Below are positions 28,258 to 45,430 of a stretch of DNA of 64,000 nt, piece by piece. The stretch is from Noviherbaspirillum sp. L7-7A (GTDB taxonomy: Bacteria > Pseudomonadota > Gammaproteobacteria > Burkholderiales > Burkholderiaceae_D). Position numbers and translations under genes: made by a program. The notes under the pieces were generated by a model. It made no database searches. It was not told where the DNA came from and was given only the letters and a program-made list of their open reading frames with translations. The stretch's first letter is position 1. Each line of letters starts with the position of its first letter. The DNA is taken from the NCBI RefSeq assembly GCF_019052805.1, contig NZ_JAHQRJ010000003.1, forward strand, positions 124,001 to 188,000, in the 5' to 3' direction.

Positions 28258-30327
28258 ATGTTTAACAACACCGGACACCCTATGACTGAAAGTAGCAAGC
28301 CGGACCCGGCACTGGCCGCCGGCGTGGACGAAGAGGCGTTGAAAAAGGCGGAAGCCTATATTGAGGAAGAGGAAGGCGCGGCCAACCGCATGACTGGCTG
28401 GATTGCCGGCTTTTTGACCCTCACCGCCGTGGTGATGTCACTGTTCCACCTCTACAGCGCCTATGCGATCGTGCCTACGCAGGTGCTGCGTCCGGTGCAC
28501 CTGGCCTTCGTACTGTTTCTGACCTTCCTGATGTTCCCGGTGGCGCGCCGCTTCCGCCATCGCATCATGTGGTGGGACTGGCTCGCGGCCCTTTTGTCGC
28601 TGGTGATTATTGCCTACGCCATCATGGGCGGCGACGACTTCAACGACCGCAACACCATGCCCGAAACCTGGGACATCGTGTTTGGCGCGCTGCTGATGAT
28701 ACTTGTGCTGGAAGCAATGCGCCGCACTGCCGGCTGGATCATGCCGGTGGTGACAATCGGCTTCGTACTCTACGCCCTGTACGGTAACTTCCTGCCGCAG
28801 CCCTGGACCCACAAGGGCTATACGCTGGGCCGGCTGGTAGGGCAGATGTACATGACGCTGGAAGGCATCTTCGGCGTGGCGCTGGATGTCTCTTCCTCGC
28901 TGATCATCCTGTTCACCATCTTCGGCGCCTTCCTGCAGTTCTCTAACGCAGGCAAGTTCTATATCGACTTTTCCTTCGCGGCCATGGGCGGCAAGCCAAC
29001 CGGCGCCGGCCGCACTGTGGTGCTGGCGTCCTTCCTGCTGGGAGGCCCTTCCGGCTCGGGCGTGGCAACCACGGTCACGCTGGGTTCGGTGGCCTGGCCG
29101 ATGCTGCAGAAGGTTGGCTATGAACGCAATGCCGCTGGCGGCCTCCTGGCCGCGGGCGGACTGGGCGCCATCATCTCGCCGCCGGTGCTGGGCGCGGCGG
29201 CTTTCCTGATCGCCGAGTTCCTGAAGATTTCCTATCTCGACGTGCTGCTGATGGCGGCCATTCCGACGGTGCTGTTCTACCTGGCGCTGTTCCTGATGGT
29301 GGAGATCGATGCGCGCAAATACGGCATGGGCAATACCGTGTTCGCCAAGGCCGACAGCTTGTGGAACCTGACGCGGCGTTACTGGTTCCATTTTGTGTCG
29401 CTGGTGTCGATCGTAGTGTTCATGCTGCTCGGCTATTCGCCGGTGCTGTCGGTGTTCTGGGCCACCATCGTCACCTTCTTCGTCAGCTTCCTCGACCGCG
29501 ACTGCGCGCTGCTGTCCTATGACCTCTTCCGCGGTAAGGGCTCGGTATGGCGGCACATCGCCGACTCGCGGCTGGTCAAGGCATTGGAATCCGGCTCCGT
29601 CGGCATGCTCAACGTTGCCGCCACGTGCGCCGGCGCCGGCATCATCGTCGGCGTAGTGACGCTGACCGGCCTGGGCCTGAAGTTCAGTTCTATTGTGATT
29701 GCCTATGCCGGCGGCTCGCTGCTGCTGACCGCTGTCTACACGGCGCTGGTGGTATGGATCGTCGGGCTGGCAGTGCCGGTGACGGCGTCCTACATCATCT
29801 GCGCGGTGATTACCGCGCCGGCGCTGACCAAGCTGGGCGTGCCTGACTTCGCGGCTCACATGTTCATCTTCTATTACGCCGTGCTGTCGGAAGTCTCGCC
29901 GCCAACGGCCCTGTCGCCATTCGCCGCTTCGGCTATTACGGGTGGCGATCCGTACAAGACCACGATGCAGTGCTGGAAGTACACGGTGCCTGCCTTCCTG
30001 CTGCCTTTCATGTTCGTGCTCGACCCCAGCGGCCAGGGCCTGCTGCTAATGGGCTCGACCAAGGCGCTGGCCAGCGCGAACTGGTGGTCCATCGCCCAAG
30101 TCAGCCTGACCGCAGCGGCTGGCATTGCGGCACTGGCGGCGGGTTTCCAAGGCTGGATGTTCATCCGCACCAACTGGCTTGAGCGCACGCTGTTGCTTGT
30201 AGCAGGATTTGCGCTGGCTTATCCGGGGACGTTCTACGACTTGCTGGGATTTGGCTTGCTGATTGCTGCGGTGGTGATGCAGCAGTTGAGGGGAAGGGCC
30301 GTGGTGGCGGGATCGCGTGCCGGATAG
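28258..30327 (+). CDS. Fused TRAP transporter permease (DctQM-type, TAXI-associated)
   Basis: The 689-residue membrane protein combines the small 4-helix and large 12-helix TRAP subunits in one chain, the usual form for TAXI systems. The DctM part is marked by GGPSGSGVATTVTLGSVAWP, AAGGLGAIISPPVLGAAAF and YYAVLSEVSPPTALSPFAASAITGG. It uses a sodium gradient to move the ligand delivered by the receptor. The start is uncertain: 28258 is the long frame, 28282 (MTESSKPDP) is an alternative, and neither has a strong Shine-Dalgarno. The N-terminal about 45 residues are cytosolic and acidic. Confidence 0.92.
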   Translation: MFNNTGHPMTESSKPDPALAAGVDEEALKKAEAYIEEEEGAANRMTGWIAGFLTLTAVVMSLFHLYSAYAIVPTQVLRPVHLAFVLFLTFLMFPVARRFRHRIMWWDWLAALLSLVIIAYAIMGGDDFNDRNTMPETWDIVFGALLMILVLEAMRRTAGWIMPVVTIGFVLYALYGNFLPQPWTHKGYTLGRLVGQMYMTLEGIFGVALDVSSSLIILFTIFGAFLQFSNAGKFYIDFSFAAMGGKPTGAGRTVVLASFLLGGPSGSGVATTVTLGSVAWPMLQKVGYERNAAGGLLAAGGLGAIISPPVLGAAAFLIAEFLKISYLDVLLMAAIPTVLFYLALFLMVEIDARKYGMGNTVFAKADSLWNLTRRYWFHFVSLVSIVVFMLLGYSPVLSVFWATIVTFFVSFLDRDCALLSYDLFRGKGSVWRHIADSRLVKALESGSVGMLNVAATCAGAGIIVGVVTLTGLGLKFSSIVIAYAGGSLLLTAVYTALVVWIVGLAVPVTASYIICAVITAPALTKLGVPDFAAHMFIFYYAVLSEVSPPTALSPFAASAITGGDPYKTTMQCWKYTVPAFLLPFMFVLDPSGQGLLLMGSTKALASANWWSIAQVSLTAAAGIAALAAGFQGWMFIRTNWLERTLLLVAGFALAYPGTFYDLLGFGLLIAAVVMQQLRGRAVVAGSRAG

Positions 30328-30641
30328 GGGAGTGGACACGCAGCGGCAGCTGCCTTTGTAGGGTGCGATACCCAAGGACATTGCACCGCGTTCGCAAACC
30401 GGGATCGCATCGTCAGCGGACTTCCCCGATTAACCAATGCTGCAATGCCCCTGCAGGGTATTGCAGCCTACCGACGTCGCACCTTATCCGCTTCAGGCAT
30501 GGGCGGCACGGCGCAATCAACAGGGGTCCACCGCAACTGCAACGATGTCGACTCAACCCACACCATGCCAGGCAAACCCAAGCTTGCACGGCAACGCGTG
30601 AAGGCAACGCCCCGCGTGGCGCCACGCCACACAAACCGACG
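30328..30641. other. Intergenic region between convergent genes, no gene seen
   Basis: Neither strand has a supported coding frame here. I did not find a clean terminator hairpin. Confidence 0.5.
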
Positions 30642-32189
30642 TTAACTCATGATTCCGATCTGCCAGGGCACGAACTCATTGTCCCCCAATCCCAGCAGCT
30701 CGCTCTTGCTGGCCTCGCCAGAAGCCGTGCGCAGCATGAGTTCGAAAATGCGTTCCCCCATCGCATTGATCGACATCGAACCATCCAGGATCGCGCCGCA
30801 ATTGATGTCCATGTCTTCCTCCAGCCGCTCAAACATCGGCGTATTGGTCGCCAGCTTGATCGACGGCACCGGCTTGGCGCCGAACATCGAGCCGCGACCG
30901 GTGGTGAAGGCAATCAGGTTGGCGCCGCCGGCGATCTGGCCTGTTGCCGATACCGGGTCATAGCCTGGCGTGTCCATGAAGACTAGGCCCTTGGCGGTCA
31001 CCGGCTCTGCATAACGGTAGACCTCCATCAGCGGGCCGGTGCCGCCCTTCATCGACGATCCCAGCGACTTCTCGAAGATGTTGGCAAGCCCGCCGGCCTG
31101 GTTACCGGGGCTGACCTGGCCATTGATCTGCACGTCGCGTCCGACGGAATAGACATCCTTCCACCAACGGATGCGCTCAAGCAGCTTTTCGCCAACCTCG
31201 CGGCTGGCCGAACGCCGTGTCAGGGTGTGCTCCACGCCGTAGATCTCGGGCGTCTCGGACAGGATCGCGGTACCGCCGTGGCGGGCCAGTAGGTCCACCG
31301 CCGAACCCAGCGCCGGATTGGCAGTAATGGAGGAAAAGCCATCCGAGCCGCCGCACTGCAGGCCCACGCACAGATGGCTGGCTGAGACGGTCTGGCGTCG
31401 TACTTGGTTGGCCGCCGGCAACAGCTCCCGAACCGCCGCTACACCGGCTTCAATGGTCTTCCTGGTGCCGCCGGTTTCCTGCATCACGAAGGTGCGCAGC
31501 AGCGGGCCGGCTTCCAACTGCTCGTCATCCAACAAGCCCTTCAGCTGGTTACGCTCGCAGCCCAGGCCTACCACCAGCACCGCCGCCAGGTTGGCATGCC
31601 GCGCATAGCCGGCCATAGTCCGCCGCAGCAACGCCATCGGCTCACCCGTCATTTCCATGCCGCAACCTAGGGAATGGCTGAAGGCCACCACGCCATCGAC
31701 ATTCGGATACTCGGCCAGCCGCTCTGGCGTAAACCAGTCGGCAATGCGGCGCACTGCGGTGGCTGAGCAATTGACGGTAGACAGGATGCCGATGTAGTTG
31801 CGGGTGGCGACGCGGCCGTTAGTGCGCACGATGCCCTGGAAGGTCGCGCGCTGGCCTTCGGGAAGAAGGTCGATTGGCGCAAACTCGGAAGCATGCGCAT
31901 AGTCGCGCTGGAATTCGCGGAACTCGGTATTGTGGCCATGAACCAGCGTGCCGGCCGGGATGTCGATGGCGGCAAAGCCCACCACCACGTTGTACTTGCG
32001 TATCGGCTCGTCCTTGCGGATCAGGCGCGATGCGATCTTGTAGCCGGCCGGTACCTGGCTGCGGCTGATGAAGCGCTCGGCCGGCACTTCGGTGCCTATG
32101 CCGATGTCGGTACGGGCAACCACAATGTTGTCGCCCGGATGCAGGCGAATCACCGGGCCGAGGAATTGTTTCTGGGAGGTTTCTATCAT
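30642..32189 (-). CDS. UxaA-family altronate/galactarate dehydratase
   Basis: The 515-residue protein has an N-terminal SAF domain (about residues 10-90, DNIVVARTDIGIGTEVP) followed by the UxaA/GarD catalytic region, with NYIGILSTVNCSATAVRRIAD, HSLGCGMEM, GLQCGGSDGFSSITANPALG and FTTGRGSMFGAKPVPSIKLATN. Members dehydrate sugar acids (altronate, galactarate, sulfolactate relatives) with a metal cofactor. Length matches GarD (about 520) and UxaA (about 495). The divergent LysR gene 142 bp away probably controls it. The exact substrate is not determined by sequence, so no symbol is given. Confidence 0.87.
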   Translation of the reverse strand: MIETSQKQFLGPVIRLHPGDNIVVARTDIGIGTEVPAERFISRSQVPAGYKIASRLIRKDEPIRKYNVVVGFAAIDIPAGTLVHGHNTEFREFQRDYAHASEFAPIDLLPEGQRATFQGIVRTNGRVATRNYIGILSTVNCSATAVRRIADWFTPERLAEYPNVDGVVAFSHSLGCGMEMTGEPMALLRRTMAGYARHANLAAVLVVGLGCERNQLKGLLDDEQLEAGPLLRTFVMQETGGTRKTIEAGVAAVRELLPAANQVRRQTVSASHLCVGLQCGGSDGFSSITANPALGSAVDLLARHGGTAILSETPEIYGVEHTLTRRSASREVGEKLLERIRWWKDVYSVGRDVQINGQVSPGNQAGGLANIFEKSLGSSMKGGTGPLMEVYRYAEPVTAKGLVFMDTPGYDPVSATGQIAGGANLIAFTTGRGSMFGAKPVPSIKLATNTPMFERLEEDMDINCGAILDGSMSINAMGERIFELMLRTASGEASKSELLGLGDNEFVPWQIGIMS

Positions 32190-33686: not shown

Positions 33687-33965
33687 ATGGCAACAGCAGC
33701 AAAAAAAGAGAGCAAGCCAAACGCGGCGTTCATGAAGCCGGTGACGCCTTCGAAGGTGTTGGCTGAAGTAGTCGGCGCCGAGCCGATGCCACGCACCGAA
33801 GTCACCAAGAAAGTATGGGACTACATCAAGAAGCATGATCTGCAGGATGCTGCCAACCGTCGCATGATCAATGCCGACGCCAAGCTGGAAGCTGTCTTCG
33901 AAGGCAAGAAGCAGGTCTCCATGTTTGAAATGACCAAGCTGATCTCGGCACACCTGAAGGCCTGA
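33687..33965 (+). CDS. SWIB/MDM2-domain protein
   Basis: The 92-residue protein has a Lys/Ala-rich tail (1-18) and a SWIB domain (about 19-90): FMKPVTPSKVLAEVVGAEPM, RTEVTKKVWDYIKKHDLQD and the closing QVSMFEMTKLISAHL. SWIB domains are known from eukaryotic SWI/SNF remodellers. The bacterial single-domain forms occur in chlamydiae and many Burkholderiales and are presumed nucleoid-associated. TTGGAG precedes the start. A strong hairpin lies immediately upstream, which suggests control of its mRNA. Confidence 0.93.
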   Translation: MATAAKKESKPNAAFMKPVTPSKVLAEVVGAEPMPRTEVTKKVWDYIKKHDLQDAANRRMINADAKLEAVFEGKKQVSMFEMTKLISAHLKA

Positions 33966-34027
33966 GCCACTGCCGCCGCTGTGCCGCCCCTGGTGCGGCA
34001 GGCGGCCCGGCCTTCAAAAGAGGCTGC

Positions 34028-34351
34028 ATGAAATATCCTGTCACGCCCGATGGGCGTTACTTCGTAGTGCGCGGCAGGCTCTGGCGCACCAGCAATCCGG
34101 CATTGCCGCCCGAGCACCGCAGCGCGCTCACCCGCGAGCTGATGCGCGCGCGCCGGGCCGTGGGTGTCGCGCTGCGCGCCGACGACACCGATGCATTGCA
34201 GGCGGCGAGAGCGGCCGTCGATGCGGCCAAAACGGCGCTCGGCGAGCGCGGCCCGGTCTGGTGGACCGATGGCGCGCCCGACTACAACCGCCACATGGCC
34301 AAGAATTCTCCCTACAAAGACTGGTACGACGGCCTCGCCGCGCCGGACTGA
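34028..34351 (+). CDS. Conserved hypothetical protein, 107 residues
   Basis: The small soluble protein starts MKYPVTPDGRYFVVRGRLWRTSNPALP, has a central Ala/Arg-rich helix (HRSALTRELMRARRAVG to DAAKTALG), and ends WWTDGAPDYNRHMAKNSPY. I recognise the overall pattern as a widespread proteobacterial hypothetical, but know no function. An AAAGAGG Shine-Dalgarno fits the start. It lies 62 bp after SWIB and 5 bp before the DUF2784 gene, so the three are probably co-transcribed. Confidence 0.8.
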   Translation: MKYPVTPDGRYFVVRGRLWRTSNPALPPEHRSALTRELMRARRAVGVALRADDTDALQAARAAVDAAKTALGERGPVWWTDGAPDYNRHMAKNSPYKDWYDGLAAPD

Positions 34352-34356
34352 TAGTC

Positions 34357-34758
34357 ATGCCCCGTCTTGTCCTGGCCAACATCGTGCTCACGCTGCATGC
34401 GGCAGTGGTGCTGTTCATCGTCGGCGGGCTGGTGCTGATCTTCCTCGGCCACCGGGCAGGCTGGCGCTGGGTCAATGGCTGGTGGTTCCGCCTGGCGCAT
34501 CTGGGGGCCATCGCCATCGTGGTGGCGCAAGCCTGGCTGGGCGTGGACTGTCCGTTGACCACGCTGGAAGTCTGGCTGCGCGGTCCTGGGGGAATGGGCG
34601 ATGAGGCGAATGGCTTCATTGCCTACTGGCTCGGCCGGCTGCTTTACTATCGGCTGCCCGCCTGGGTTTTCGTGCCGGCCTACAGCCTCTTCGGCGGGCT
34701 GGTCATGCTGGCATGGTGGCGCTATCCGCCATTGCGGCGCGGCACCGACCGTGCTTAG
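34357..34758 (+). CDS. DUF2784 family membrane protein
   Basis: The 133-residue protein has about four membrane segments. It opens VLANIVLTLHAAVVLFIVGGLVLIFLG and then WRWVNGWWFRLAHLGAIAIVVAQAWLGVDCPLTTLE, both diagnostic of DUF2784. I chose ATG 34357, five bases after the previous stop. The longer frame overlaps that gene. Its end overlaps the convergent response-regulator gene by four bases. Function is unknown. Confidence 0.85.
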   Translation: MPRLVLANIVLTLHAAVVLFIVGGLVLIFLGHRAGWRWVNGWWFRLAHLGAIAIVVAQAWLGVDCPLTTLEVWLRGPGGMGDEANGFIAYWLGRLLYYRLPAWVFVPAYSLFGGLVMLAWWRYPPLRRGTDRA

Positions 34759-35129
34759 CAGTTTTCGCAATGCGCATGCGCAAGGGCGAACAGGCGTTCC
34801 AGACTAACTGGCTTTTTCAGCACGCTGCAATTGTAGTCGCGCTCGACATCCGCGATGTCGGCCGCGGCGGAAACCACCGCCACCGGCGTCTGGGCCAGCG
34901 GCGCTGCCTTTTCCCGGCGCAGGGCTTCCAAAAATTCCCAGCCATTCATCACCGGCATCATCAGGTCCAGAAGGATGAGGCAGGGCTGGCCATTCTGCTC
35001 GATCTGGCGCAGGCCTTCCCTGCCATTGCTGGCGGTGACGACACTAAAACCTTCCATTTCGAGCAGATCCTTCAGCGTCTCGCGCAAGTCCGTGTCATCT
35101 TCAATTACAACGATGTGCTTGCATGGCAT
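34755..35129 (-). CDS. Single-domain response regulator
   Basis: The 124-residue CheY-like receiver has the acidic pair in VVIEDDTDLRETL, the phospho-acceptor Asp in LILLDLMMPVMNGWEFL, the Ser in VVSAAAD and the conserved Lys in LKKPVSLERL. It has no output domain. The start at 35129 has GGAGA five bases upstream. It lies 13 bp after the hybrid kinase stop on the same strand, so it is the likely phospho-partner of that kinase. Confidence 0.9.
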   Translation of the reverse strand: MPCKHIVVIEDDTDLRETLKDLLEMEGFSVVTASNGREGLRQIEQNGQPCLILLDLMMPVMNGWEFLEALRREKAAPLAQTPVAVVSAAADIADVERDYNCSVLKKPVSLERLFALAHAHCENC

Positions 35130-35142
35130 CCGTCTCTCCATT

Positions 35143-37626
35143 TCATGTCGGCTGCGTTAATGTTTCACAGGCACCGCGGCTGGGCAGGTGCACGCGGAAG
35201 CGGCTGCCTTGTCCCAGGCGCGAACTCACCGTGATCCTGCCTCCCAGCGCCCGCACGATCTGGTCCACCAGTGCCAGGCCCAGGCCAACGCCCGGCAGGC
35301 TCTTGTGCTGCACCGGCTCCAGCCGTTCGAACGGTTGAAAAATACGGGTGGTATCCGCTTCGTCAATTCCCTGCCCAGTATCAGCCACTTCAAATACGTG
35401 TGTGTCATGTTCCGTCATCAATCGGACTGTTACCGAGCCCTGGCTGGTGAATTTCAGGGCATTTGAAATCAGGTTGGCCAGGACGATGCGCAGCAGGCGG
35501 GCATCGCTGACAATGGGTGGCACGGCTGCCTGCTGTGGCTCAAGCGATAGCGTGACTGCGCTGGCGGCCTGGTCGGCATGTGCCGACAGCACTTCCTGCA
35601 CAATCGCAGCAGCGTCCAGCGACTCCGGACGCGCCTCGATCCTGCCGCTTTCCAGGCGGGTATATTCCAGCAGGCTTTCCACCAGCCCGGCCAGTTGGCG
35701 CGTTGCGCGCGCCATGCGTTGCAGTCGGGCGGTGGCGGGAGTGGGCAGGCCGCCGCCGCGTTCCAGCAACTGCACATTCATATCCATGGTGGCAATCGGC
35801 GTGCGCAGCTCATGGGAGACCATGCCGAGGAACAGGCCCTTGACCCGGTTTGCGCGTTCAGCCTGCTCGCGCGCCACCTCGGCCGCATCGCGTGTGGTTT
35901 CGAGCTGCCGATGCCGCGTCACCAGTTCCGATGCCAGCCCCTCGATATCCAGCGATGCGCTGGCGAGTGCGCCGCGCAATTGGTCGCCGGCACGCTTGGC
36001 CGCAATCAGGTTGGCTGCGCGCGCCAGCAGTTCCTGCGGCAGGAAGGGCTTGGTCAGATAATCCTGCGCGCCTTCGCGCAGGAGTTTTACCCGCAGTGCA
36101 TCATCGGCCTTGGCGCTGAGCAGCAGGATGGGCGTGGCCGCAGGTGCGTCGTTGCTGCTGCGTATGGCTTTGACCAGCTGCTCGCCACTCATCAGGGGCA
36201 TCATGATGTCGCTCACGACCAGATCAGGCTGCAGCGCCTGGAAGCGTTGATAGCCTTCTTGGCCGTCGGCGGCGGTGACAACGTTATAGTACGGTGCCAA
36301 GGTCTCGGCCAGAAAGCGGCGCATGTCCTGGTTGTCTTCGACTACCAGCACCGACGGCCGCTGCGGCAGTGGCGCCTCAGGCTGCTCGGCCGCTGCAGCC
36401 GGGGCCAGTTCCTCCAGCATGGTCGACAGCGCCAGCCGGGTTGCGGGACTGGCTGCGGGTGCGGCGCTCTGTACCGCGGCGTCGACACCGGCGGTCAGCG
36501 GCAATTGCACCGTGAAGCGGGCACCGCCGGCAGCACTGGCATCCACTTTCACCGAGCCGCCATGCAGGCTGACCAGGTCTTTCACAATGGCCAGGCCAAG
36601 CCCGGTGCCGCCGTATTGACGGGTGATGCTGCCATCCGCCTGGCGGAAGCGTTCAAAGATCAGCTCCCGCGCCTCTTCTGCGATGCCGGGGCCGCTGTCG
36701 GCGACGGTGATGACCACATTGCCGTCGCCGCGCGCAAGCCGCAAGCGCACTTCGCCGCCCGCCGGCGTGAATTTGACTGCATTGGACAACAGGTTGATGA
36801 CCACGCGCTCGATCATATCGGGATCGGCTTCGATCAGCATGGCTTCGTCGGCAGCCACATCGAAGCGCAGCCCGCGCTGACTGGCAACCTGTTCGAACTG
36901 CGCGGCGATGTCCGTGAGCCAGGGCTGCAGGTCGAACCGTGTCCGCTGCGGCTGCATGTCATGCGATTCCAGCTTGGCGATATCCAGCAGGTCGTTGACA
37001 TGGCGCAGCAGGCTGCGGCCATTGCGGCTGATCAGGTCCAGTTCACGACGTTGCTGCTGGTTCAGGCTTGCATCTTCGCGCATGCGCTCGGCCGGGCCCA
37101 GCATCAGGGTCAGTGGCGTGCGCAGCTCATGCGAGACATTGGCGAAGAATTGCGTCTTGATTTCATCAAGCTCCTTGACCTTGCGGTACAGGGCTTCCAG
37201 TTCCGTGTGGGCGCGTTCCAGTTCCACACGGCGCTCTTCGGAAAGACGTGCCGCGGCCACCGTTTGCTCGATCTGCGGCCGGACGTACAGCAAGCCGATG
37301 GCGGTCGCGACCGATGCGGCCGCGGTGGCAACCTTGACCAGGCCATCCAGCAGATAGTCCGGATGCCATACCGTCCATATCTTCATGAAGTGGGTAAGGC
37401 CGCACAGGCCGATGAACAGGCCGAAGGCAATAAACACCGGACTGAAAGGCAACCTGATCCTGCGCACCAGCAGATAGAGGACCAGGGAGATGCCAAGGTA
37501 GGCCGTGCCGATCAGCGCGTCGGACACCACATGCATCCAGAGCAGGCTGGGGATCCAGAGGTAGCAGTGCCCATGCGGCATGAATGCGCTGCTTTTTTCG
37601 GAAATCTCGTTAAGCCAGTTTGCCAT
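35143..37626 (-). CDS. Hybrid histidine kinase with ethylene-receptor-like membrane domain
   Basis: The 827-residue protein begins with a three-helix membrane domain (residues 20-125) resembling the plant ETR1 and cyanobacterial Etr1 ethylene-binding domain. Residues equivalent to ETR1 Asp25, Tyr32, Ile62, Cys65 and His69 are all present (Asp36, Tyr43, Ile72, Cys75 and His79, the last two in LCGLTHF). A coiled-coil linker follows, then a first HisKA (phospho-His about 166) and HATPase_c (NLLSNAVKFT, GGTGLGLAIVK), a receiver (Asp about 472 in VVSDIMMPL), and a second HisKA (His about 604) with its own HATPase (NLISNALKFT, GVGLGLALV). There is no PAS or GAF. The start has GGAGA five bases upstream. 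A single-domain regulator follows. Ethylene or copper binding is an inference. Confidence 0.88.
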   Translation of the reverse strand: MANWLNEISEKSSAFMPHGHCYLWIPSLLWMHVVSDALIGTAYLGISLVLYLLVRRIRLPFSPVFIAFGLFIGLCGLTHFMKIWTVWHPDYLLDGLVKVATAAASVATAIGLLYVRPQIEQTVAAARLSEERRVELERAHTELEALYRKVKELDEIKTQFFANVSHELRTPLTLMLGPAERMREDASLNQQQRRELDLISRNGRSLLRHVNDLLDIAKLESHDMQPQRTRFDLQPWLTDIAAQFEQVASQRGLRFDVAADEAMLIEADPDMIERVVINLLSNAVKFTPAGGEVRLRLARGDGNVVITVADSGPGIAEEARELIFERFRQADGSITRQYGGTGLGLAIVKDLVSLHGGSVKVDASAAGGARFTVQLPLTAGVDAAVQSAAPAASPATRLALSTMLEELAPAAAAEQPEAPLPQRPSVLVVEDNQDMRRFLAETLAPYYNVVTAADGQEGYQRFQALQPDLVVSDIMMPLMSGEQLVKAIRSSNDAPAATPILLLSAKADDALRVKLLREGAQDYLTKPFLPQELLARAANLIAAKRAGDQLRGALASASLDIEGLASELVTRHRQLETTRDAAEVAREQAERANRVKGLFLGMVSHELRTPIATMDMNVQLLERGGGLPTPATARLQRMARATRQLAGLVESLLEYTRLESGRIEARPESLDAAAIVQEVLSAHADQAASAVTLSLEPQQAAVPPIVSDARLLRIVLANLISNALKFTSQGSVTVRLMTEHDTHVFEVADTGQGIDEADTTRIFQPFERLEPVQHKSLPGVGLGLALVDQIVRALGGRITVSSRLGQGSRFRVHLPSRGACETLTQPT

Positions 37627-37756
37627 GCATTCTCCGCGGTGATTCGTGAGGGGCGTACAAGCTTTCGGGTTGGTACACGGTGCCGGGCATGATTATAAGG
37701 CTTGGTGCGACTCGGCAAGGTAGGGCAGAGGAATGACGTGGCGCCATTCCGGACAT

Positions 37757-37846: not shown

Positions 37847-40072
37847 TCAGCGACGCGCCGCCTTGACCTTCAGGCGCCATGCATGCAGCAGCGGCTCGGT
37901 GTAGCCGCTTGGCTGCGTCAGGCCCTGGAACACCAGGTCGCGCGCGGCGCGGTAGGCATAAGAAGCCTCGAAGTCCGGCGCCATTGGCGTGTAGAACGGG
38001 TCGTTCTCGTTCTGAGCATCCACCACGCGCGCCATGCGCTGCAAGGTTTCCGTGACCTGCGCCTCGTTGACCACGCCATGCAGCAGCCAGTTGGCGATGT
38101 GCTGGCTCGAAATGCGCAGCGTGGCGCGGTCTTCCATCAGGCCGACGTTGTGGATGTCGGGCACCTTGGAGCAGCCCACGCCCTGGTCGATCCAGCGCAC
38201 CACATAGCCCAGGATGCCCTGTGCATTGTTGTCCAGTTCCTGCTGGATTTCCTCGGCCGGCCATTTCGCTTGCGCTACCACTGGAATCTGCAGCAGTTCA
38301 TTGCGCAGGCGGTCGACCTCGCCGGCATTGGCGGTCTTTTCCAGCTGCTGCTGGATCTCGGCCACGTTCACCTGATGGTAATGCAGCGCATGCAGCGTGG
38401 CACCGGTCGGCGAGGGCACCCAGGCGGTGTTGGCGCCGGCCTTGGGATGGTTGATCTTCTGCTCCAGCATCGCTGCCATCATGTCCGGCATGGCCCACAT
38501 GCCCTTACCGATCTGGGCGCGGCCGCGCAGGCCGCAGGACAGGCCGATTAGCACGTTGCTCTTCTCGTAGGCGGTGAGCCAGGTGCTGGTCTTCATGTCG
38601 CCCTTGCGCATCATTGGGCCGGCCTGCATGGCGGTGTGCATCTCGTCGCCGGTGCGGTCCAAAAAGCCGGTGTTGATAAAGGCCACGCGGCCGGTGGCTT
38701 CGCGGATGCAGGCCTTCAAGTTGACGCTGGTGCGGCGTTCCTCATCCATGATGCCCAGCTTGACGGTCTCGGCCGGCAGTCCCAGCAGTGCCTCGACGCG
38801 GCCGAACAGTTCGCTGGCGAAGGCCACTTCGGCCGGGCCATGCATCTTGGGCTTGACGATATAGACCGAGCCGGTGCGTGAGTTGCCGATCTTCTGTTCC
38901 GGCTTGCGCTTCAGGTCATGCAGGGCGATCGCCACGGTGACCACCGCATCCATGATGCCTTCCGGGATTTCCTTGCCGCCGTCATACAGGATGGCCGGGT
39001 TGGTCATCAGGTGGCCGACATTGCGCAGGAACAGCAGCGAGCGGCCATGCAGCGTGACCACGCCGTCCTTGACATCAGTGGCGCCGACGCCAGCGGTGTA
39101 TTCGCGGTCCGGGTTCAGGCTGCGGGTAAAGGCATTGCCGCCCTTGGTGATGGTTTCCGACAGGCTAGCCTGCAGGATGCCCAGCCAGTTCGAGTAGGCC
39201 AGCACCTTGTCCTCGGCATCGACCGCGGCGACCGAGTCTTCCAAGTCGAGGATGGTCGACAGCGCGGCTTCGATCACCAGGTCGGCCACGCCGGCGGCGT
39301 CGCCCTTGCCGATCGGGGTGTTGCGGTCGATGATGATGTCGACATGCAGGCCATTGTTCTTCAGCAGCACCGAGGTCGGTGCGCCGGCGTCGCCGCGGTA
39401 GCCGACGAACTTCGCTGCATCGGCCAGTCCGGTGGCGGCGCCGTTCTTCAGCGCCACGGCGAGCTTGCCGCCCTCGACGGTGTAGCCGGCGGCGTCGTGA
39501 TGGCTGCCCTGTGCCAGCGGCGCGATGCGGTCGAGGAAGTCACGGGCAAAGCCGATCACCTTGACGCCGCGCACGGGGTTGTAGCTTTCGCCGTTCGGGC
39601 CATTGCGGGTGGCGCCGTCGGTTTCGGCGATGGCGTCGGTGCCATACAGCGCGTCATACAGCGAGCCCCAGCGCGCATTGGCGGCGTTGAGCGCGTAGCG
39701 GGCGTTGAGGATGGGCACGACCAGCTGCGGGCCGGCCTGCACCGCCAGCTCGGCATCGACATTCGCGGTGGTGATGGTGAAGTCGTCCGGCTGCGGATTC
39801 ATGTAGCCGATCTTTTCCAGGAAGGCGCGATAGGCCGCGGTGTCTCTCAGCGGGCCAAGATTGGCGCGGTGCCAGTTGTCCAGCTCGGTCTGCAGCCGGT
39901 CGCGTTCGGCTAGCAGCGCGATGTTCTTCGGCGCCAGGTCGCGCACGATGGCGTCGAAGCCTTGCCAGAAGGCGGCGCTGTCGACGCCGGTGCCAGGCAG
40001 CACGCGGTCTTCGATGAAGCGGTAGAGCGGGGTGGCGATCTGCAGTCCGTGGCAGGTAGTGCGGTCAGTCAT
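37847..40072 (-). CDS. glcB: Malate synthase G
   Basis: The 741-residue enzyme condenses glyoxylate with acetyl-CoA to malate. Length fits the monomeric G form (about 723), not the A form (about 530). Recognisable segments are [52 protein letters not shown], the hallmark [17 protein letters not shown], and [25 protein letters not shown] lies seven bases before the start. It is 43 bp downstream of a haloacid dehalogenase gene on the same strand and ends at a clear terminator. It consumes glyoxylate from glycolate, purines or the glyoxylate bypass. Confidence 0.96.
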
Positions 40073-40115
40073 GGTTAAGCCTCGTGTTGTCGTTATTTAA
40101 ATCGGAAAGGAAAAA

Positions 40116-40811
40116 TCATCGGGTAGCGCCGCGGCGTGCATCAGTGGCGATGAAGGCCGGCAGGTCCGACAGCAGCCGCGCCTGGCCGCTGGGCGTGACA
40201 CCCAGCTCCTCCATCGGCGCATCAGCGCGGTTAACCCAGAATGTCTTGTAGCCAAACCAGCTGGCGCCGCAGATGTCCCAGCCATTGCTGGAGACGAACA
40301 GGATGTCGCGCGCTGCCATGCCCAGCATGTCGGTGCCGAGCTGGTAGGCTTCCGGCGCGGTCTTGAACTTGCGTACCGCATCGGCGGAGAGCACATGGCT
40401 GAACAGGCCCTCCATGCCGGCATTCTGCACGGCGGCCGCTAGCATTTCGGGATTGCCATTGGAAAGAATAGCCATCTTCATGCCGGCGTCCTTCAGCTGG
40501 CGCAGCGCGGTAAGATTTTCCGGGAAAGCCTGCAGCTTTGCGTACTGGCCCATCATGGTGTTCTGCGCTTCCAGGTCCAGTTCCAAGCCCAGCTTACGGC
40601 ATGAAAATACCAGTGCGTCCTGCGTGATTTCCCAGAAGGGCTTGTAGGTGCTGCACAGGGTGCGCAGCTGGCTGTACTGGATCTGCTTGTCGCGCCACAG
40701 TTCGGCCAGCGATGCGCCCTTGCCGGGATAGAAGCGCTCGGCCAGTGCGCCGATGGAATAAACGTCGAACAGGGTTCCGTATGCGTCGAAAAGAATGGCC
40801 CGCACTGGCAT
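40116..40811 (-). CDS. Haloacid dehalogenase, type II
   Basis: The 231-residue HAD-superfamily enzyme has the nucleophile Asp9 in FDAYGTLFDV, motif II Ser in AILSNGNPEML, the motif III Lys in AVRKFKTAPEAYQLG and motif IV FVSSNGWDICGASWFG. The last motif is specific to L-2-haloacid dehalogenases, which hydrolyse L-2-haloacids such as chloroacetate to 2-hydroxyacids. Length matches the family (about 225-230). It is immediately upstream of glcB, which suggests that glycolate formed from haloacetate could feed glyoxylate metabolism. That link is inferred. Confidence 0.9.
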   Translation of the reverse strand: MPVRAILFDAYGTLFDVYSIGALAERFYPGKGASLAELWRDKQIQYSQLRTLCSTYKPFWEITQDALVFSCRKLGLELDLEAQNTMMGQYAKLQAFPENLTALRQLKDAGMKMAILSNGNPEMLAAAVQNAGMEGLFSHVLSADAVRKFKTAPEAYQLGTDMLGMAARDILFVSSNGWDICGASWFGYKTFWVNRADAPMEELGVTPSGQARLLSDLPAFIATDARRGATR

Positions 40812-41574: not shown

Positions 41575-44500
41575 TCAGGCCGGCGCCATCGTCATCAGGC
41601 TCGCATTGCCGCCGGCGGCGGTGGTGTTGACCGACACGGTGCGCTCCGTCACCAGACGCCACAGGGCAATCGGTTGGCTGCCATGGGTTTGCGCAACTGG
41701 CGTCAGCGCGCCTTCGCGTGCCGCCAGCATGGGCAACTGGGCTGCGCAGCAAGCCTGGTCGCACAGGGCCAGTGATATTGCTGGATGGCTGGCCACATCG
41801 GCCACGATGATGATTCTTGCGCTGACCGGCTGCGGCAGGCCCGCCGGCAGCATGGCGTAGGCAGCAGCGCTCATCAAAGCCTGGTTGCCGGTCGCCAGCA
41901 CGGCCGCCAGCTGGTTGACCAGCGCGGCACGATCGGCCGCCGCGCACAGCACGGCGCCACGGGCGCCAAAGCGCAGGACGTTGCTTTCGCCGGTCGGGCC
42001 CGGCAGGCTTAGTGCGCGGCCAAGCAGGCTGTCCTGTGCATAGCGCTGGGTCAGCGCCATCAGCACCATGTCGCCACTGGCCCGCGCCCATTCCTGCAGC
42101 GCCTCCAATCCGGCATCCCTTGCCGGCGCTTGCATGGCTAGGTTGGATGCCAGCGGGCCGCTATCTAGAGCATGCTGCAACCGGCGCAGGTACAGCGGCC
42201 CTCCGGCCTTGGGACCGGTGCCCGACTTGCCTTCGCCGCCGAAAGGCTGCACGCCGACCACTGCGCCGACCATGTTGCGGTTCACATAGATATTGCCCAC
42301 ATGCGCCCTTGCCACGATGTTTCCCACCGTGTCATCGATGCGCGAATGAATGCCCAGCGTTAGCCCATAGCCGCTGGCATTTATCTGCGCCAGCAGCGCT
42401 GGGAGCTGCTCGCGACGGTAACGCAGCACATGCAGCACCGGCCCAAACACCTCATGCTGCAAGCGGGAAAAATCGTCGATCAGGATCACCGTGGGCGCAA
42501 CGAAGCTGCCACGCCGGCAGCTGTGCGGCAGGGGCAGCTGAAACATCTCCAGCGCATGGCCGCCGGCGCGGTCAATGTAATCCGTAAGAGCGCGGCGTGC
42601 ATCCTCGTCGATAACGGGGCCGACATCGGTGGCGAGCCGGTCCGGCACGCCCATGCGCAGTTCCTGCAGCGCGCCCTTGAGCATGCCAAGCACATGGTCG
42701 GCGATATCCTCCTGCAGACACAGCACCCGCAACGCCGAGCAGCGCTGGCCGGCGCTGTCGAAGGCTGACGCCAGCACATCCTGTACGACCTGTTCCGGCA
42801 GCGCCGAGGAGTCGACAATCATCGCATTCTGGCCGCCGGTTTCCGCGATCAGCGGTAGTGCGCAGTCTTGTGTCGCACCACGCTGGGCAAGCCGACGGTT
42901 GATCAGCGCAGCCACCTCGGTAGAGCCGGTGAAGAGCACGCCGCGGATGCGCGCATCGGCCACCAGCGCCGCGCCAACAGTGTCGCCCGAGCCGGGCAGC
43001 AATTGCAGCGCGGCGCGCGGTATGCCTGCCTGGTGCAGCAGCGTGGTGGCCAGATGCGCAATCAGCGGCGTCTGCTCCGCCGGCTTGGCCAGCACCACAT
43101 TGCCCGCGGCCAGCGCGGCGCTCACCTGGCCGATGAAGATCGCCAGCGGGAAATTCCACGGGCTGATGCACAGCACCGGCCCCAGGGCCGGCGCGGCTGG
43201 CGCCTGGCTGGCCTGGGCGGCGTAATAGCGCAGGAAATCAACTGCTTCGCGCACCTCGGCCAGCGCATTTGGCAAGGACTTGCCGGCTTCGCGCACTGCC
43301 AGGGACACCAGGGGCAGCCGCTCCCGTTCCAGCAGGTCCGCCGCGCGCAGCAGCGTGGTGGCGCGGGCTGCCGGCGTCATTGCCTGCCAGTGCGGTGCTT
43401 CCTGCGCCGCCGCGGCCAGCGCCGCTTCCCTCTGCGTCACGGTGGTATCGCACACCAGGCCAACTTGGTCCGCGCGGTCGGCCGGGTTGGTGACGGGCAT
43501 ACCGATAGTACCCGAGGCCAGGTCGCCATGCGCCAGTAGCGGCGCGGCATGCCAGAAGCGCTGGCCGAGCGCCTGCAGCACCGGCGCGATCTTGAGCAGC
43601 ACATTGCGGTCATTGAAGTCCATGCCGGACGAATTGCGCCGGCCGGGGCCGTACAGTGCCGCCGGCAGGGGAATGGCCGGATGCGGCGCGCCGTCAGACT
43701 GATGCGCCGCCTGCACCGGGTCGGCCAGCAGCCGCTCCAGCGGCATCTGCTCGTCGACGATCTGGTTGACGAAGGAGGTATTGGCGCCGTTTTCCAGCAG
43801 CCGCCGTACCAGGTAGGCCAGCAGGGTCTGGTGCGAGCCGACCGGGGCATAGATGCGGCAGGCTTGGCCCAGGCCGTCCTTGCCGACCACCTGGTCGTAC
43901 AAAGTTTCACCCATGCCATGCAGGCACTGGAACTCATAATCCGTTACGCCCAGCCGTTGCGCATCGGCGTGCACCATGGCCAGCGTCAGCGCGTTGTGAG
44001 TGGCAAACTGGGGATAGATCACGTCGCTTGCGGCCAGCAGCCGCTGCGCGCAGACCAGGTAGCACAGGTCGGTATGCGCCTTGCGGGTGTAGACCGGATA
44101 GTCCGGCATGCCATCCACCTGGGCGCGCTTGATTTCCGCATCCCAGTAAGCGCCCTTGACCAGTCGCACCATCAGTCGGCGGCCAGCGCGCCGGGCCAGG
44201 TCGACGATGCAGGCAATCAGTGCCGGACAGCGCTTCTGGTAAGCCTGCACCACGAAGCCGATGCCGTCGAAGCCGGCGGTGTCGGCATCGAAAGCCAGCG
44301 CTTCGAGCAGGTCCAGCGAGAGTTCCAGCCGATCGGCTTCCTCGGCATCAATGTTGATGCCGATGTCGTAGCGCTTGGCCAGCAGCACCAGCGTCTTCAA
44401 ACGCGGCAGCAGCTCCGTCATCACGCGCTCTCGCTGGGCCACGCTGTAGCGCGGATGCAGTGCCGACAGCTTGACCGAGATGCCCGGACCTTGGCGAATG

Positions 44501-45276
44501 CCGCGCCCGGCGCTGGCGCTGCCGATGGCATGGATGGCGTCTTCGTACAGGCGGTAATAGGCGTCGGCATCGGCCATGGTCAGGGCCGCCTCGCCCAGCA
44601 TGTCGAAGGAATAGCGATAGCCGCGTTCCTCGTTGGCGCGGCCATGCGCCAGTGCTTCCCCGATAGTCTGGCCGGTGACGAACTGCCGTCCCAGCATGCG
44701 CATTGCAAGGTCTACGCCGCGCCGGATCAGCGGCTCGCCGCCGCGCGCGATCAGCCGGCCCAGCGCCGCACCCAGTCCCTGCTCGCTGGCGTCGTGCGGC
44801 GCGACCAGTTTGCCGGTCACGACCAGCGCCCAGGTGGCGGCATTGACGAACAGGGACGGCGAGCCGCCCAGGTGGCGTTGCCAGTCGCCGCGGCTGATCT
44901 TCTCGGCGATCAGGCGGTCCGCGGTGTCATGGTCGGGAATGCGTAGCAACGCCTCGGCCAGGCACATCAGCGCAATGCCTTCCTGCGAGGACAGGGAAAA
45001 TTCATGCATCAGCGCATCCACGCCGGAGGCGCGGGCACGGCGGCTGCGCACGGTTTGCACCAGCCTTCTCGCCAATGCATGCGCATGGCCTGCAACGTGC
45101 GCATCCTGAGCCACCTCGGCAAGCAGTGCCTGCACCGCATCTCTCTCGTCGGGACGGCAGGCTGCGCGCAGGGCCTGGCGCAGCGGGTCCGGCTCGGGGC
45201 CGGCCTCGGCCACCAGCGCGGCAAAGGGCGGCAGGGAGCCAGCGGGCGTGAGCGGAACGGCATCGGGCTTGTTCAT
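41575..45276 (-). CDS. putA: Bifunctional proline dehydrogenase / P5C dehydrogenase
   Basis: The 1233-residue enzyme oxidises proline to glutamate in two steps with substrate channelling. The FAD-dependent proline dehydrogenase barrel is in about residues 120-500 (GPGISVKLSALHPRY, the RLVKGAYWDAEIK motif). The NAD-dependent aldehyde dehydrogenase follows (about 555-1015), with SPWNFPLAIFIGQVSAAL, catalytic Glu in ETGGQNAM and Cys in SAGQRCSALR. A C-terminal ALDH-like domain follows, as in long type-B/C PutA. It lacks the N-terminal ribbon-helix-helix repressor domain of E. coli PutA. Control probably falls to the divergent Lrp-family gene. I chose 45276, eight bases after GAGGA. 45282 is possible. 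Confidence 0.94.
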   Translation of the reverse strand: MNKPDAVPLTPAGSLPPFAALVAEAGPEPDPLRQALRAACRPDERDAVQALLAEVAQDAHVAGHAHALARRLVQTVRSRRARASGVDALMHEFSLSSQEGIALMCLAEALLRIPDHDTADRLIAEKISRGDWQRHLGGSPSLFVNAATWALVVTGKLVAPHDASEQGLGAALGRLIARGGEPLIRRGVDLAMRMLGRQFVTGQTIGEALAHGRANEERGYRYSFDMLGEAALTMADADAYYRLYEDAIHAIGSASAGRGIRQGPGISVKLSALHPRYSVAQRERVMTELLPRLKTLVLLAKRYDIGINIDAEEADRLELSLDLLEALAFDADTAGFDGIGFVVQAYQKRCPALIACIVDLARRAGRRLMVRLVKGAYWDAEIKRAQVDGMPDYPVYTRKAHTDLCYLVCAQRLLAASDVIYPQFATHNALTLAMVHADAQRLGVTDYEFQCLHGMGETLYDQVVGKDGLGQACRIYAPVGSHQTLLAYLVRRLLENGANTSFVNQIVDEQMPLERLLADPVQAAHQSDGAPHPAIPLPAALYGPGRRNSSGMDFNDRNVLLKIAPVLQALGQRFWHAAPLLAHGDLASGTIGMPVTNPADRADQVGLVCDTTVTQREAALAAAAQEAPHWQAMTPAARATTLLRAADLLERERLPLVSLAVREAGKSLPNALAEVREAVDFLRYYAAQASQAPAAPALGPVLCISPWNFPLAIFIGQVSAALAAGNVVLAKPAEQTPLIAHLATTLLHQAGIPRAALQLLPGSGDTVGAALVADARIRGVLFTGSTEVAALINRRLAQRGATQDCALPLIAETGGQNAMIVDSSALPEQVVQDVLASAFDSAGQRCSALRVLCLQEDIADHVLGMLKGALQELRMGVPDRLATDVGPVIDEDARRALTDYIDRAGGHALEMFQLPLPHSCRRGSFVAPTVILIDDFSRLQHEVFGPVLHVLRYRREQLPALLAQINASGYGLTLGIHSRIDDTVGNIVARAHVGNIYVNRNMVGAVVGVQPFGGEGKSGTGPKAGGPLYLRRLQHALDSGPLASNLAMQAPARDAGLEALQEWARASGDMVLMALTQRYAQDSLLGRALSLPGPTGESNVLRFGARGAVLCAAADRAALVNQLAAVLATGNQALMSAAAYAMLPAGLPQPVSARIIIVADVASHPAISLALCDQACCAAQLPMLAAREGALTPVAQTHGSQPIALWRLVTERTVSVNTTAAGGNASLMTMAPA

Positions 45277-45430
45277 CGGCATAGTCCTCAGGCTGAAGGC
45301 GCAGGCCGGTGCGCCTGCATGTTTTTCCATTCTAGGAGAAATAAACCAATATTAATTCTAGGAATTTGCCGCATTTGCTTAAATAAATCTGGCTTAAAAT
45401 TGATTAGCAAAATTAAATTTACTCAAGACC

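Follow-up and report, generated by a model that had tools for sequence, protein, structure and literature searches.

A serine-type sensor of the ethylene-receptor family on a double-kinase protein in Noviherbaspirillum sp. L7-7A

We found that an 827-aa sensor kinase encoded in a 64,000-nucleotide stretch of the Noviherbaspirillum sp. L7-7A genome (the window) is, judged by its sequence, a genuine ethylene-receptor-family protein, and that ethylene should not be taken for granted as its ligand. The copper ligands of the family are kept, but the position of the essential proline Pro36 of Arabidopsis ETR1 is occupied by serine, and the sensor is joined to two kinases that flank a receiver. We read the protein as a copper-dependent sensor of a small molecule, with a remodelled pocket, that would feed a four-step phosphorelay; ethylene is a possible ligand, and we give this reading a probability of roughly 0.62. 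In a literature search of open PMC papers, we found neither Ser-type nor double-kinase ethylene receptors described, nor the sub-clade that combines the two features.

The kinase gene lies on the minus strand and starts with ATG (35143..37626). Its Pfam ETR1_N match at residues 28-119 scored 107.1 bits against a cut-off of 27 (E 5.7e-31). Since the same profile matched none of 14 control genomes, a match of this strength is far beyond chance, and it is the sole ETR1_N match in the 5.22-Mb genome. Behind the sensor, Pfam placed HisKA and HATPase_c twice each and a single receiver. Together with a residue check, this defines a first kinase core with phospho-acceptor His166 (residues 151-380; 36487..37176, minus strand), a receiver with phospho-acceptor Asp473 (residues 426-536; 36019..36351, minus strand) and a second kinase core with phospho-acceptor His605 (residues 586-815; 35182..35871, minus strand). 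No PAS domain was matched by Pfam in the protein at E <= 0.001. All 11 catalytic or phospho-acceptor residues that we checked, including His166, Asp473 and His605, are present in each of the 12 double-kinase receptors read. Opposite the kinase gene, the plus strand has a 704-aa open reading frame (35578-37692), most likely a by-product of GC-rich coding sequence.

The sensor domain (residues 15-117; 37276..37584, minus strand) consists of a conserved PHGHCYLW segment followed by three membrane helices. When 207 distinct domains were aligned, the window residues D36, Y43, I46, I72, C75, H79 and K98 fell in conserved columns. On the minus strand these include Asp36 (37519..37521), Tyr43 (37498..37500) and the copper ligands Cys75 (37402..37404) and His79 (37390..37392), which correspond to ETR1 Asp25, Tyr32, Cys65 and His69. 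We carried this numbering over through the 525-aa counterpart of AzoEtr1 in Azospirillum brasilense MTCC4039 (L187), rather than by direct alignment to ETR1 or Slr1212. L187 has D35, C75, H79 and K98, and in AzoEtr1 these residues have been equated with ETR1 D25, C65, H69 and K91 (PMC11819568). An earlier note on this DNA had proposed an ethylene-receptor-like hybrid kinase and had named Asp36, Tyr43, Ile72, Cys75 and His79 as the matching residues. The alignment confirmed all five in the named columns, the copper ligands proved conserved together with Asp36 and Lys98, and the ETR1_N score bears out the family membership. The protein is indeed a kinase, but "hybrid kinase" understates a build in which two full kinase cores flank the receiver. 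The note mentioned neither the residue at the Pro36 site, nor the second complete kinase, nor the neighbouring receiver gene.

The predicted fold agrees with three membrane helices. Three hydropathy peaks lie at the N-terminus, and AlphaFold2 run on a six-row alignment of six sensor domains placed membrane helices at 26-57, 62-87 and 91-141 (mean pLDDT 77.4), the third of which extends past the end of the sensor domain. A PDB fold search gave 0 matches at E <= 0.001, and a PDB sequence search at E <= 1 gave two weak glutamate-receptor matches and no solved structure of the domain. Across the 12 double-kinase receptors, D36, Y43, I46, I72, H79, K98, T101 and S105 are invariant, and C75 is present in 11. 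The exception is a receptor from the cyanobacterial sample (L268:1737-4154), in which Gly replaces the copper Cys and the His is retained. We consider it likely that copper is held in the sensor.

To the equivalents of D25, Y32, I35, F61, I62, C65 and H69, all of which are kept in the window, the literature adds one position that is not. The ETR1 residues listed as essential for ethylene binding include I35, P36, I62, C65 and H69 (PMC6586836, citing Wang et al. 2006), and a Pro36Leu change in tomato ETR3 is reported to make the plant ethylene-insensitive (PMC6727826). At this site the window has Ser47 (37486..37488, minus strand), and L187 has Pro at the corresponding residue 46. When Pro36 is counted, the window kinase therefore does not match a canonical receptor, while the other binding-essential positions named in the cited literature are kept. 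Among the 207 distinct domains, the residue at this site is P in 159, S in 26, A in 14, L in 5 and T, G or V in one each; in the 161 domains that keep D, Y, C and H, P is found 138 times, S 17 times, A 5 times and L once. For the ethylene sensing suggested earlier, family and copper ligands thus hold up, but the case is weaker than stated, with serine at the essential proline both in the window and throughout its sub-clade.

Next to the serine, other residues differ as well. We compared the 12 double-kinase domains, all of which have Ser at position 47, with the 138 intact Pro-type domains. Position 40 is Gly in 10 of 12 double-kinase domains and Ala in 110/138 Pro-type domains, position 44 is L, V or I in 12/12 against Y or F in 126/138, position 67 is Ala in 11/12 against Leu in 101/138, and position 80 is Phe in 10/12 against L, V or I in 123/138. 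On a helical wheel of helix 1, positions 40, 44, 47 and 51 lie 40, 80, 20 and 60 degrees from Asp36. The differing positions 45 and 53 lie at 180 and 260 degrees, off the Asp36 side, as do several differing positions in helices 2 and 3, although such wheels are crude. These data suggest that the Ser-type receptors have a changed binding pocket.

Two explanations compete at this point. The window kinase may be a plain ethylene receptor that copes with serine in place of Pro36 and binds ethylene in much the same way as AzoEtr1. The seven kept positions favour this, and so does the constraint on the window-type sensor, which equals that in Pro-type receptors. Against it stand the reports that Pro36 is essential in ETR1 (PMC6586836) and that its change to leucine leaves tomato insensitive to ethylene (PMC6727826), as well as the company that the serine keeps at positions 44, 40 and 67. 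We hold this explanation to be a serious one, at somewhat below even odds. Alternatively, the pocket may have shifted towards a different ligand of Cu(I), for instance an olefin of greater size or polarity or some other small gas. The changes are correlated clade-wide, the helix 1 positions 40, 44, 47 and 51 lie within 20-80 degrees of Asp36, and the residues at 40, 45, 47 and 67 are smaller or more polar. However, position 45, position 53 and several positions in helices 2 and 3 face elsewhere, and position 80 is enlarged to Phe. We regard the change of specificity as a tentative possibility. For ethylene itself as the natural ligand of the window kinase, we put the chance a little short of even.

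We then related the serine to the build of the proteins. All 12 receptors of kinase-receiver-kinase build carry Ser at the Pro36 site, and this build occurs in 0/139 complete Pro-type proteins, of which 57 measure 790 aa or more; a further 20 Pro-type proteins that end at the edge of a fetched stretch were left out of the 139. The association runs in one direction, as Ser domains are also found in other builds (14 of 26 overall, 6 of the 17 that keep D, Y, C and H). The kinase and receiver models behind these counts were seeded with the window's own domains and 29 of the 139 Pro-type proteins showed none, so that diverged kinase or receiver domains may be missed. The 12 receptors comprise the window kinase, five found by full-protein search, one by sensor-domain search and five by the Pfam model (L205, L206, L207, L264 and L268).

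The genome searches covered 1298 genomes, repeats included. ETR1_N matches were present in 31/145 sampled genomes of the window's family, in 27/399 of its order and 29/398 of its phylum, and in 45/146 genomes of the cyanobacterial and 14/194 of the Verrucomicrobiota sample. Matches that were not fetched are mainly weak or fragmentary cyanobacterial ones, with a few from the family and phylum samples. In the order-wide sample, the 25 domains besides the window's are all Pro, and no additional double-kinase receptor was found. Within the window's family, D, Y, C and H are all kept in 23 of the 35 distinct ETR1_N domains read. Six family receptors (L101, L105, L107, L108, L109 and L110) have lost the copper Cys and/or His and still have a kinase ATPase domain attached.

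In a careful tree from which the Pro36 column had been removed, a branch with support 100/99.8 sets 14 Ser receptors apart, although the bootstrap was unsettled (correlation 0.960). These rows, 11 double-kinase and 3 single-kinase, span three phyla and derive from the window's group plus Polaromonas, from Cyanobacteria and from Verrucomicrobiota. The tree has 86 rows, with every second Pro row kept and 8 long rows excluded; 11 of the 12 double-kinase receptors are in it, L268 being removed by the Cys filter. We named the 14-row clade with the first tree already in view, and the Ser rows L212, L130, L244 and L257 are not counted in it. Replacement at the Pro36 site has been recurrent, as this tree requires 8 changes there in all. 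A quick tree, which includes the long-branch rows, was built from 157 domains of at least 95 aa with both Cys and His; it has the double-kinase rows in two groups and needs 4 changes.

The kinase-receiver-kinase cassette is not tied to the ETR1_N head. In a 23-row cassette tree with 11 other-headed members, grouping the 12 sensor-bearing double kinases as their own clade was rejected (p-AU 3.4e-5), and heads were therefore swapped or joined more than once. Proteins from Caenispirillum (L004) and Acidobacteria (L007) have the same cassette, nested in the same tree, and no ETR1_N. The head of L007 is a receiver and that of L004 is PAS-like by eye, whereas the window's is ETR1_N.

We also assessed selection on the individual segments. 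Between the window and the same-genus genomes G055 and G015, dN/dS of the sensor is 0.059 and 0.058, compared to 0.147-0.397 for the kinase and receiver segments. Against G058 and Polaromonas glacialis, the sensor values are 0.107 and 0.148, and those of the other segments 0.28-0.43. When pairs sharing 60-97% sensor identity are compared, similarity is higher in the sensor than in the first kinase for 27/27 double-kinase pairs (mean gap 0.22) and for 431/434 Pro-type pairs (mean gap 0.21); the group that lost the copper site contributes one pair, in which the sensor is less alike than the kinase. The sensor is thus the slowest-evolving and most conserved part of the protein. This disfavours a degenerate, ligand-blind domain that merely anchors the protein in the membrane and dimerises it, a view to which the loss of Pro36, the loss of the copper Cys in L268 and the loss of copper ligands in other receptors of the same bacterial family would lend something. 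With the sensor under the strongest purifying selection in the protein, and with the copper Cys in 11/12 and the His in 12/12 double-kinase receptors, we judge it very unlikely.

Downstream of the kinase, a second minus-strand gene (34755..35141) encodes a stand-alone receiver protein of 128 aa with Asp59; its ATG lies one base after the kinase TGA. A receiver gene follows the kinase in 6/6 double-kinase loci from the window's family plus Polaromonas, namely the window, G055, G015, G058, P. glacialis and a Polaromonas MAG. In two cyanobacterial double-kinase receptors, a receiver-only ORF lies upstream of the kinase gene (L189:3641-4081 and L264:3857-4264). Pfam found no output or DNA-binding domain in the 128-aa protein at E <= 0.001, and for this reason it probably works through contact with another protein.

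The surroundings of the kinase pair are conserved at close range. Upstream lie malate synthase G and a HAD hydrolase (37847-40811), downstream SWIB, a 107-aa ORF and DUF2784 (33687-34758). The same flanking genes surround the pair in the same-genus genomes G055 and G015, and none of them was matched in the fetched G058 and Polaromonas loci. Farther out, a TRAP fused permease above cut-off is found near a 515-aa dehydratase (28258-32189) that resembles galactarate dehydratase with a score below half of the cut-off, and a 1251-aa PutA (41575-45330, minus strand) scores 1704 bits against a trifunctional cut-off of 1750 and passes the bifunctional one. A search of the window's genome for ACC deaminase gave nothing above cut-off (best 267.6 vs 392 bits), so nothing else found in the genome points to plant ethylene. 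The neighbourhood also bears on whether copper(I) itself is the signal. The conserved ligands and the very tight binding of Cu(I) by ETR1 (PMC6586836) agree with such a copper sensor, but binding this tight fits a cofactor better than a signal, and none of the nine neighbours whose families were looked up is a copper-handling gene. We consider it unlikely.

Under the copper-dependent reading that we prefer, the dimeric sensor domain would hold Cu(I) via Cys75 and His79, and the loaded sensor would bind a small unsaturated compound, either ethylene itself or a closely related one. Ligand binding would alter autophosphorylation of the first kinase at His166. The phosphate would then pass from His166 to Asp473, on to His605 of the second kinase and finally to Asp59 of the separate receiver protein, which would act by touching another protein. 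We have good confidence in this order, in which the direction of transfer and the partner are inferred from TodS, a protein of transmitter-receiver-transmitter order with a four-step His-Asp-His-Asp relay (PMC4321377). What speaks against the preferred reading, at the level of residues, is that the proline reported as essential in ETR1 is Ser here, and that the copper Cys is replaced by Gly in one of the double-kinase receptors (L268).

Comparison with known systems delimits what is new. Arabidopsis ETR1 and Synechocystis SynEtr1 (Slr1212) share the sensor domain and copper ligands with the window kinase. ETR1 combines a GAF domain with a single kinase and a receiver, and it carries Pro36 in place of Ser47. 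TodS/TodT of Pseudomonas putida likewise pairs a transmitter-receiver-transmitter protein with a separate response regulator. However, TodS has PAS sensors and no membrane helices, while the window kinase has the ETR1_N membrane sensor, and TodT has a DNA-binding domain of the kind that was not found in the window's receiver protein. AzoEtr1 of the heterotrophic, plant-associated A. brasilense is a demonstrated ethylene receptor, which binds ethylene and alters biofilm and root colonisation, and whose gene end is overlapped by a 135-aa receiver gene (PMC11819568). Like the window, it combines a heterotrophic host, an ETR1_N sensor that retains D, Y, I, I, C, H and K, and an adjoining stand-alone receiver gene, which is also seen by eye in L187. 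It differs in its PAS domain and single kinase (PMC11819568), where the window has two kinases around a receiver, and in the Pro at residue 46 of its counterpart. ETR1_N with varied outputs has been described from many proteobacteria and cyanobacteria (PMC7700396). Given AzoEtr1 and this wide occurrence, there is nothing new per se in finding a kinase of the ethylene-receptor type in a heterotrophic betaproteobacterium, and the notion that it would be remarkable because the host is a heterotroph is not borne out.

The pairing of the Ser-type pocket with a putative double-kinase phosphorelay suggests a joint change in pocket and output. A broader idea, about which we are rather doubtful, is that the Ser-type double-kinase receptors form a second sensory class on the ethylene-receptor fold in at least three phyla, which would have kept the copper site, would bind a Cu(I) ligand other than ethylene through a pocket without the proline, and would signal into a built-in four-step phosphorelay. 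The name ethylene receptor is readily given to bacterial ETR1_N proteins. In conclusion, with the essential proline lost and the copper site still strongly selected, the Ser sub-clade offers a natural test of the role of this residue, and of whether that name suits the family as a whole.
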